A stretch of 64,000 nt of DNA from an uncultured Prevotella sp. (lineage in GTDB: Bacteria; Bacteroidota; Bacteroidia; Bacteroidales; Bacteroidaceae): assembly GCA_905234815.1 (NCBI GenBank), contig CAJOIX010000002.1, positions 3,287 through 67,286 of the forward strand. The letters are read 5' to 3'. Made by a program: the position numbers and the translations under genes. Under the pieces are notes generated by a model. That model had not been told where the DNA came from. It saw only the letters and a list, made by a program, of their open reading frames with translations, and made no database searches. Below, piece after piece: positions 17,913 to 37,142 of this stretch (position 1 is its first letter; every line of letters begins with the position of its first letter).

Positions 17913-17938
17913 GACGATTGATCAAACTATTTTACACA

Positions 17939-17978
17939 AAAAACTCCTCGCAGCGCAACTTGGCTGCGAGGAGTTTTT
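17939..17978 (+). terminator. Intrinsic terminator after DASS transporter
   Basis: AAAACTCCTCGCAGC-GCAACTTG-GCTGCGAGGAGTTTTTT perfect stem plus T-tract. Confidence 0.93.
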
Positions 17979-18001
17979 TATTGTCTGTGAAATGGCTGTT
18001 T

Positions 18002-18089
18002 CCAATAGCTATGCTTTTGCCCTCCAATAGGATAGCTTTTACAACCTAAAAGCATAGCTTTTGAAGGCTAAAAGGATAGCTCTTGAATT
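18002..18089 (-). repeat. Array of four 22-bp near-palindromic units (array 1)
   Basis: CCAATAGCTATGCTTTTGCCCT / CCAATAGGATAGCTTTTACAAC / CTAAAAGCATAGCTTTTGAAGG / CTAAAAGGATAGCTCTTGAATT, exact 22-bp register. Confidence 0.88.
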
Positions 18090-18105: not shown

Positions 18106-20364
18106 TCATTCTTCAACGAGTGTGAACTTTGCAAATTTCAGCAATAATTGCTTGGTTCCTGCATTGCGGAATTCCACTGTAGCCTTGGTATTTTCACCTT
18201 CTCCCGTAACACTAAGAACGATTCCCATACCGAACCTGTCGTGAAGAATCTTATCATTGGGCTTGAGCGGCGCATTGGTCGAAGGTCGCTCTACCACAGG
18301 CGTGGATGGAATCGGCCGTAAGCGCGAAAAAGAGTGATTGGAACGGGAAGTGGAGAGATGAGCGTGGAGTGCGGACTGTGCCACAGGAGTCGTGTTCGCA
18401 GCGCTTTCAAAATACTGCCGATCCATATCTCGCAGAAACCGGCTTGGGGGATTCATGACCATTTGCCCGAATTGCCAACGCGACTGAGCATGAGTAAGAT
18501 AGCAATGCTGTTCTGCGCGAGTGATGGCAACGTAGAGCAGGCGGCGTTCTTCCTCGAGTTGTGATAAAGAACCGGCGCTCAATGGACCCGGGAAGAGATT
18601 TTCTTCCAACCCGACAACGAAAACCACAGGAAACTCCAAACCCTTGGCCATGTGTATCGTCATCAGCGAAACCTGATTGTCTTGCTGTCCTTCTACTGTT
18701 TCTACGGCATCAACCGAAGTAAGCAGCGACACTTCCTGCAGATAGTTTTCAAGATAAATCTCCTGCAAGGCGTCTTCTTCCTCTTTACGCTCTACAAATT
18801 CTTGCATACTGTTGAGCATCTCATCGAGATTTTCCAATCGGGTGGCCATCTCGGGATCGCTGGCTGGTTGATATTCGGCGGTGATATTGATAAGAGCGAA
18901 CAATTTCTGTGCAACAGCGTATGCCGATTCCCTCATGGCCACCTGTTGCAACTGCTCTACAACCTTCACAAATTCAGCTACACGCTTAGCGGCAGCAGGA
19001 GCAATAGACAATGAAGAAGCGCTTGAGTGGATAGCCTGCCACAGACTTATCTGCTTTTCCGCAGCAAACTGGCTGATTTTGATAAGCGTTGTAGCGCCGA
19101 TGCCACGCGCGGGAAAGTTGATGATGCGACGTAAGGCTTCATCATCGTCAGCATTGACCAAAATCCGGAAATAAGCAATGATATCTTTGATCTCTTTGCG
19201 CTGGTAAAAGCCCGTTCCGCCATAGATGCGATAGGGGAGTGCACGTTTTTGAAATTCCTCTTCAAACACACGGCTTTGCGCATTGGTGCGGTAAAGAATA
19301 GCGAAATCGCCGAACTGGTATTGGTTTGTTCGGCGCATCTGCTGAATTTGTTTGCATACGTACATGGCCTCATCGCGGTCAGAGGCTGCAGCGTAAAGGT
19401 GAAGAGGACTGCCTTGAATGTTTTCGCTGTAAACATTTTTGTCTATCTGGTGCAGATTCTTCTTCATGAGCGAATTGGCTGCACCGACTATGCGTTGCGT
19501 AGATCTGTAGTTACGCTCCAACTTGAAGAGCTTGGCTTCAGGAAACTGGCGTTGGAATGTGAGTATGTTGTCAATCTTAGCTCCGCGAAAACCGTAAATG
19601 CTCTGGTAATCGTCGCCAACCACGCATACATTGTGATTCTTTCGCCGTAACATGAGCATAATTTGCTGCTGAACATAATTGGTATCCTGATACTCGTCAA
19701 TGAGAATATGGTCGTACCGCTTCTCGTATTTTTCTCTCACCTCTGGATGGGTGTAGAACAGCTGGAACGTTTTCACCAGCAAATCGTCAAAATCCATAGC
19801 ATTGGCCAACTGGCAACGCTGCTCATATAGGGCATAGATTCGCCCCAGTTGTTCCATCTGCTTTTTTCTATCCTGCTGGTAAAGATCGGGACTGGCAGCA
19901 TATTGTTCAGCTGAAATCAATTGGTTCTTGGCCCAACTGATACGTGAGCATACTGCTGAGGGCTTGTAGGTCTTATCGTCAAGTGCCAATTCCTTTACGA
20001 TTTGCTTCACAAGCGAACGAGAATCAGATTCATCGTAAATGGTGAAGTTTGAGCGATAACCAATGAGCCCTGCCTCAAAACGCAAAATACGGGCAAAGAT
20101 GGAATGGAAGGTACCCATATCCAACCGAAGTGCATTGCTGTCGAGCATCGAAGCGATTCGCTCTTTCATCTCATTGGCGGCCTTGTTGGTAAAAGTCAGC
20201 GCAAGGATATTCCATGGATTAACCCCTTGCTCCACAAGGTATGCAATCTTGTAGGTCAACACACGGGTCTTGCCTGAACCTGCACCTGCCACCACTAATT
20301 GTGGCCCATCCGCATAAGTCACAGCTTCACGCTGTGCGGGATTAAGTGAAGATAAATCTATCAT
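18106..20364 (-). CDS. uvrD: UvrD/PcrA-type ATP-dependent DNA helicase
   Basis: LNPAQREAVTYADGPQLVVAGAGSGKTRVLTYKIAYL; DEYQDTNYVQQ; VVGDDYQSIYGFRGA; MTIHMAKGLEFPVVFVVGLEE. Confidence 0.96.
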   Translation of the reverse strand: MIDLSSLNPAQREAVTYADGPQLVVAGAGSGKTRVLTYKIAYLVEQGVNPWNILALTFTNKAANEMKERIASMLDSNALRLDMGTFHSIFARILRFEAGLIGYRSNFTIYDESDSRSLVKQIVKELALDDKTYKPSAVCSRISWAKNQLISAEQYAASPDLYQQDRKKQMEQLGRIYALYEQRCQLANAMDFDDLLVKTFQLFYTHPEVREKYEKRYDHILIDEYQDTNYVQQQIMLMLRRKNHNVCVVGDDYQSIYGFRGAKIDNILTFQRQFPEAKLFKLERNYRSTQRIVGAANSLMKKNLHQIDKNVYSENIQGSPLHLYAAASDRDEAMYVCKQIQQMRRTNQYQFGDFAILYRTNAQSRVFEEEFQKRALPYRIYGGTGFYQRKEIKDIIAYFRILVNADDDEALRRIINFPARGIGATTLIKISQFAAEKQISLWQAIHSSASSLSIAPAAAKRVAEFVKVVEQLQQVAMRESAYAVAQKLFALINITAEYQPASDPEMATRLENLDEMLNSMQEFVERKEEEDALQEIYLENYLQEVSLLTSVDAVETVEGQQDNQVSLMTIHMAKGLEFPVVFVVGLEENLFPGPLSAGSLSQLEEERRLLYVAITRAEQHCYLTHAQSRWQFGQMVMNPPSRFLRDMDRQYFESAANTTPVAQSALHAHLSTSRSNHSFSRLRPIPSTPVVERPSTNAPLKPNDKILHDRFGMGIVLSVTGEGENTKATVEFRNAGTKQLLLKFAKFTLVEE

Positions 20365-37054: not shown

Positions 37055-37142
37055 CTAAAAGCTATGCTTTTGCCTTCCAATAGCTATCCTTTTGCACGCT
37101 AAGAGCTATGCTTTGGGAGTCCGAAAGCATAGCTTTTGAAAA
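37055..37142 (+). repeat. Array of four 22-bp near-palindromic units (array 2)
   Basis: CTAAAAGCTATGCTTTTGCCTT / CCAATAGCTATCCTTTTGCACG / CTAAGAGCTATGCTTTGGGAGT / CCGAAAGCATAGCTTTTGAAAA, exact 22-bp register. Confidence 0.88.

Follow-up and report, generated by a model that had tools for sequence, protein, structure and literature searches.

In several Prevotella species, intergenic arrays of palindromic units follow each other along the chromosome at distances of about 10 kb, and the evenness of this spacing far exceeds chance. The array could be a site for a sequence-specific protein and an element organising the chromosome, a tentative reading which in our opinion falls somewhat short of probable; the function is inferred, and there are no binding or functional data. 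In E. coli, the barriers of supercoil domains have been described as randomly placed (PMC6907758). If the proposed role is true, near-evenly spaced anchors encoded in the DNA with a fixed architecture would make the determinant of domain size directly testable; if the array is a mobile element instead, its spacing would be a record of target immunity, a rare thing in so tiny an element. In both cases, the named cultured carriers differ in the unit centre and would thus represent natural specificity variants of an unidentified DNA-binding protein.

Arrays in the window and in the source genome

The window, the whole stretch of 64,000 nucleotides which was analysed, corresponds to positions 3287-67286 of contig C2 in a MAG of the Prevotella group (1.62 Mb, 56 contigs, 82% complete), of which 1.47 Mb were read, in stretches. 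The window contains two arrays (Table 1). The unit in both is a 15-nt dyad core, AAAAGC-TAT-GCTTTT or near variants, and the centre-to-centre distance is exactly 22 bp irrespective of the unit sense. Array 1 is situated in a convergent gene pair: the uvrD stop codon at 18106 (minus strand) is 21 bp away from the last core, and on the side away from uvrD lies the terminator of the DASS transporter gene, a 17-nt inverted repeat (17938-17979). The setting of array 2 is a divergent pair, the genes for a Tex-like protein and for threonyl-tRNA synthetase. Its outer palindrome is centred 33 bp past the centre of the fourth unit; on both flanks of array 1 such a palindrome is unrecognisable. The end of the window (37143-64000) is the start of the longest array-free interval (37.5 kb) in the genome sampled, which comprises apparently ordinary core genes and no island.

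Table 1. Coordinates of both arrays and of neighbouring features in the window
Feature	Position	Strand	Remark
Array 1, four 22-bp units	18002..18089	-	between DASS transporter gene and uvrD
Array 1 cores	18004-18018, 18026-18040, 18048-18062, 18070-18084		+--- on + strand, equal to +++- on - strand
Array 2, four 22-bp units	37055..37142	+	pattern +++-
Array 2 cores	37057-37071, 37079-37093, 37101-37115, 37123-37137	+	
Array 2 outer HU/IHF-like palindrome TTGTTTTTCAA	37158..37168	+	one mismatch to YTGAWWWTCAR
DASS transporter intrinsic terminator	17938..17979	+	17-bp perfect stem, T run; neighbour, outside the element
uvrD, 752 aa	18106..20364	-	stop codon faces array 1; neighbour, outside the element

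An earlier note on this DNA had reported the two arrays, each with four units in exact 22-bp register, and had regarded them as a dispersed intergenic element, an idea to be given up if the genome held only these two copies, if there was no enrichment over shuffled sequence, or if spacing and unit number were variable at orthologous loci. Both arrays are indeed present at the coordinates it gave, and none of these objections applies. In the 1.47 Mb we found 113 arrays, 112 of them intergenic. The loose unit motif matched 454 times genome-wide and the reversed control only 3 times, pairs of units in 22-bp register number 229 compared to 0 in the control, and spacing as well as unit number are nearly constant, with exactly four units in 101 arrays. 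The remaining 12 are runs that take in weak adjacent matches, a small number of true expansions, and arrays in which a unit has decayed or is missing. By a profile search of the genome, no more than two lone units and a single match below threshold were added; strict patterns miss some diverged copies and therefore undercount.

Throughout the 101 arrays the units are near-invariant and the linkers variable, the latter being 7 nt long with a position-specific consensus. Because certain arrays are identical or nearly identical across the 88-bp core and stand in unrelated flanks, the core is, as judged from these sequences, copied, either through transposition or through ectopic gene conversion. 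Some aberrant elements with decayed units (C1:51412 and C5:6098 in the source genome, and probably also C2:77865) have longer flanks in common, which in the first two are about 73% identical where compared, as if they were located within a larger repeated segment.

The gene contexts of the arrays, based on 1104 genes from our own caller using dicodon scores, are -- 33, +- 28, ++ 26 and -+ 21. About a quarter of the arrays sit in convergent gaps, and there is no strong bias to the 3' ends of genes. A regulon operator was rejected, as convergent gaps (28) are at least as frequent as divergent ones (21) and no gene family stands beside arrays in more than two species; by a rough estimate, arrays share neighbours no more often than by chance.

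The outer units mostly face outward (78 of 101 arrays at one end, 72 of 101 at the other) and the middle units 2 and 3 are co-oriented in 88% of the arrays (Fisher p=2e-15). Accordingly, the commonest pattern is +++- or the mirror-image +--- (51/101), which is the layout of three same-sense units and one inverted terminal unit already noticed in the window. At one end of the element follows GAAA..CG..TTT.TA and then the palindrome TAA-N4-YTGATWATCAR-N4-TTA, centred 33 bp (1.5 units) off the nearest unit centre; the opposite end has a short TTTTC-type arm. Short inverted arms are found on both sides of the array, without a defined true terminus. If one mismatch is allowed, the outer palindrome is present on one side in 59 of the 101 arrays, on both sides in 1 and on neither in 41. 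The exact WATCARNNNNTTR occurs at a single fixed offset in 23 of 202 flanks; in array-free intergenic DNA its rate is about 7e-5 per position. Each half of the palindrome fits the IHF consensus WATCAANNNNTTR, which makes it an HU/IHF-like site without binding data, and the HU/IHF family has five matches in the source genome.

When the arrays are oriented by the outer palindrome, the element proves to be polar and about 140 bp long. This orienting inflates the information content of the palindrome itself and leaves the remaining flank positions unaffected. A description as one symmetric long palindrome was dropped, because units 2 and 3 are co-oriented and the outer palindrome is one-sided. The element polarity has no strong tie to gene direction and is random along the chromosome (neighbours alike in 32/64); on the latter ground a signal for replication direction was rejected. 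In other species the outer palindrome is located at an identical offset or exactly 11 bp nearer (22 or 33 bp), except for the S. baroniae stretch, where it was not found. The distances of units and palindrome (22 and 33 bp) are therefore all multiples of 11 bp. The A/T tracts recur in a phase of about 11 bp, and with the wedge angles of the Bolshoy model an intrinsic curvature of 117 degrees per 88 bp is predicted for the arrays, versus 38 for array-free intergenic DNA.

Spacing and occurrence among genomes

Within contigs, the nearest-neighbour distances of the arrays (n=78) have a median of 10.6 kb, a minimum of 5.2 kb and a CV of 0.43. Randomly drawn intergenic gaps of the same number have a mean CV of 0.84-0.89 with a minimum of 0.57 over 5,000 trials, and a regularity equal to the observed one was reached in 0 of 5,000 permutations. 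Distances below 5 kb, which make up 34-36% in the random draws, were not observed at all. An exponential spacing model lies 52 log-likelihood units below a lognormal one, and a shifted exponential with a hard minimum distance still 5 units below. The pooled stretches of S. baroniae DSM 16972 and the MAG BRZ_R__bin45 gave a similar picture (CV 0.475 versus 0.85, p=0.0003), and so did Prevotella oral taxon 299 F0039 at the most sensitive threshold (CV 0.51 versus 0.92, p<1/4000). In the latter the evenness fades with stricter thresholds (p=0.008, then 0.11), as is expected because degenerate copies are missed. At the most sensitive threshold, 400 kb of its complete 1.77-Mb replicon contain 53 four-unit elements, and three Markov-model sequences contain none. 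This array-dense replicon (NC_022111.1) is listed as a plasmid in PLSDB and is probably a chromosome. As it is the sole plasmid match and no array match was found in cultured phages (uncultured phages were outside the scope), carriage by phages or plasmids was discarded.

When 300 genomes of the genus were searched with a strict two-unit pattern, 49 contained matches, in several cases more than 100, and the controls were near zero. Array-poor genomes are truly poor, because 151 kb around uvrD across 29 genomes gave only one match, in an already known carrier genome. In a 394-genome sample of the order, a three-unit pattern occurred in just two genomes, the source and another member of the genus, and in none outside the genus. 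Named carriers include Segatella baroniae, Prevotella illustrans, P. brunnea and oral taxon 299. Evenly spaced four-unit arrays with other centres are present in S. baroniae, a rumen MAG and oral taxon 299. The unit centres differ between species, across the whole of each genome: GCTATSC in the source, GGYNRCC in bin45, GCAGCCC/GGGCTGC in S. baroniae and CAATGCTTTT half-sites in oral taxon 299. The units of the last tend to retain one half only, and this half-site may be the actual recognition sequence. A run of about 18 units with alternating linkers in S. baroniae (NZ_AUFQ01000002.1, 34849-35240) looks like a local minisatellite grown from a four-unit element.

At four orthologous loci the same intergenic gap is occupied in two genomes (bin36/bin79 twice, bin36/P. 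brunnea, bin45/E22 bin320). In the three more distant of these pairs the flanks are unalignable, the register is kept and the unit centres have changed to the local version; the bin36/P. brunnea pair has kept the outer palindrome too. A register conserved despite divergence, from which the earlier note had inferred constraint on the spacing within the window, is thus also observed at orthologous positions, and its persistence after the flanks diverged implies long-term constraint, as far as this can be read from alignments. Between the source and S. baroniae or bin45, 0 of three informative gaps are common to both, at a median protein identity of 58%. No close relative is available for comparison, the source UvrD being at most 59% identical to any listed member of the genus.

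Possible functions of the array

In the mechanism we propose, each unit would be bound by one dimer of an unidentified sequence-specific protein, all on the same face of the intrinsically curved DNA, and an HU/IHF-family protein would bend the flank, so that the whole element could fold as a single compact nucleoprotein complex. Such complexes every 10 kb or so would act as chromosome-organising sites, i.e. anchors for loops or against supercoil diffusion, whose even spacing would be maintained because domain size matters; duplication or gene conversion of the array would give rise to copies and make them uniform. A dedicated protein, rather than readout of shape alone, is what the unit sequences point to, because they are constant within each species and differ in a coordinated way from one species to another. 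The organising role is suggested by the even spacing of about 10 kb, the independence of gene direction and the retention at orthologous positions. Going further, one may imagine a lattice in which a fast-coevolving dedicated protein on four phased sites forms anchors that set the domain size, comparable to a bacterial insulator with actively maintained spacing; this extended version is possible and somewhat more doubtful. Several findings speak against an organising role. Most species of the genus are without recognisable arrays, and therefore the role of the element can not be essential to the genus. The array is copied as a unit, which would fit a mobile element as well. The outer palindrome can not be recognised in the 41 arrays mentioned, array 1 included, nor in S. 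baroniae, and none of the three informative syntenic gaps is common with the distant carriers.

The main and serious rival is a small non-autonomous, MITE-like element, on whose four sites a transposase would act, spreading between genes and kept evenly spaced by target immunity. We consider it rather unlikely, yet it accounts for the fixed size, the polarity with random orientation, the (near-)identical cores in unrelated flanks and the patchy occurrence among species, and it has a parallel in Tn7, a transposon with target immunity whose right end is bent at four 22-bp TnsB sites (PMC11406308). The Tn7 sites, however, partly overlap and are part of a transposon end (PMC11406308), whereas the Prevotella units are near-palindromic and may be inverted, and a Mu-transpos_C domain was not found in 16 carriers, a search which lacked a positive control. 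No other candidate transposase was found either: Y1_Tnp is absent from the source genome, which is only 82% complete, and from 8 of 16 array-bearing genomes, among them 97-99% complete ones and near-complete ones with more than 100 array matches. Arrays do lie within about 1.2 kb of two of the eight Y1_Tnp loci inspected (G099 C1:1594075, L278; G317 C7:31826, L279). The long-term constraint implied by the register at orthologous sites with diverged flanks also argues against a mobile element, and a species-wide change of the unit centre at old positions would be unexpected for inert insertions. Even spacing by loss of close pairs through recombination between repeats is not excluded, and the present data do not separate chromosome organisation, target immunity and such losses.

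The phased A/T tracts might also form a strong wrapping site for DNA gyrase or another topoisomerase, comparable to BIME-2 of E. coli or the strong gyrase site of Mu. In E. coli the gyrase motif spans about 130 bp and its flanks have a period of 10.75 bp, and BIME-2 is cleaved by gyrase (PMC6379681); the tracts of the arrays show a phase of about 11 bp over a comparable length, without cleavage data. Gyrase is, however, thought to read shape, which does not explain unit bases that are near-invariant within a species and change in concert between species, many species of the genus need gyrase equally and lack the element, and a strong bias to gene 3' ends is missing. A strong gyrase site is thus improbable. 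Still far less credible is a transcribed structured RNA or bidirectional terminator, with the array as a long hairpin at gene ends. On either strand, both window arrays do form better folds than shuffled sequence does (z -2.2 to -6.0), and the share of arrays between convergent genes would suit it. Units 2 and 3 would, however, have to pair, and they are co-oriented in 88% of the arrays; pairing of linker 1 with linker 3 is lower within arrays than between arrays (z -4.1), the helices of the long hairpin are without covariation and pair no better within arrays than between them, 21 arrays are in divergent gaps, and the DASS gene already has its own terminator beside array 1. Rfam gave no family at gathering score. 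On account of unit orientation, gene contexts and missing covariation an RNA element or terminator was rejected, and we regard the array as a DNA site. The earlier note had left open whether the array is a multi-site protein target or a structured RNA: the former is favoured by spacings in multiples of 11 bp, occurrence in all gene contexts and the concerted change of centres between species, without binding data, and the latter is disfavoured.

Comparison with known repeat systems

Returning to chromosome organisation by a bound protein, the nearest functional analogues would be the BIMEs of E. coli, because these palindromic repeats impede supercoil diffusion, have been proposed as supercoil barriers (PMC6907758) and bind gyrase, as BIME-2 with its gyrase sites (PMC6379681), or IHF (PMC2817692); the Prevotella element may work like a BIME. 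Common to both are palindromic units scattered between genes, in regular register and with either sense, a copy number above 100, an IHF-type site within a composite element (BIME-1 or RIB) and a proposed role in organising the chromosome (PMC2817692; PMC6907758). In contrast to BIMEs, the Prevotella element has no linked RAYT transposase, its unit number is fixed at four, the 22-bp distance between its units is of the order of helical turns, and its copies are evenly spaced along the chromosome. The definition of REP includes a GTAG (or CGTC) tetranucleotide at the palindrome foot (PMC3733652). The trait of high-copy, intergenic, palindromic units in mixed senses is met, but the logo of 101 arrays contains no such tag and Y1_Tnp (RAYT) is not consistently present, so that the arrays are not REP/BIME by definition.

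A dedicated organising protein is known from matS/MatP of E. coli, where it binds short palindromes that recur over a region of the chromosome, with 23 sites averaging one per 35 kb (PMC6907758). However, matS is a single 13-bp site restricted to the Ter region, whereas the Prevotella array has four sites and occurs genome-wide in the sample, about every 10 kb. A CRISPR array was excluded, since those have unique spacers of about 30 nt between near-identical repeats, and the arrays have 7-nt consensus linkers and four units at more than 100 loci. We did not find a description of the element in the literature, as far as open-access papers are concerned.

Among the tandem repeats of Bacteroidales, the BrickBuilt minisatellite-MITE of Porphyromonas gingivalis is similar in having intergenic tandem units of 23 nt dispersed in the genome. 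It differs by its unrelated consensus AGAYCATARTATCCTCTCRTRTG, its direct repeats of 1 to 22.8 units, only 19 copies, and a leader, tail and terminal inverted repeats (PMC4596501); by period and consensus the arrays are not BrickBuilt. Staphylococcal and Bacteroides finegoldii matches to the patterns were judged to be separate local tandem repeats. Tandem 22-bp TAAAGCNNNGCTTTA arrays with other linkers are present in B. finegoldii DSM 17565 (L199:6414-6500) and in the Bacteroidia MAG INTA.CYC.015 (L194:4358-4440), and they are possibly a distant cousin of the element or unrelated to it.
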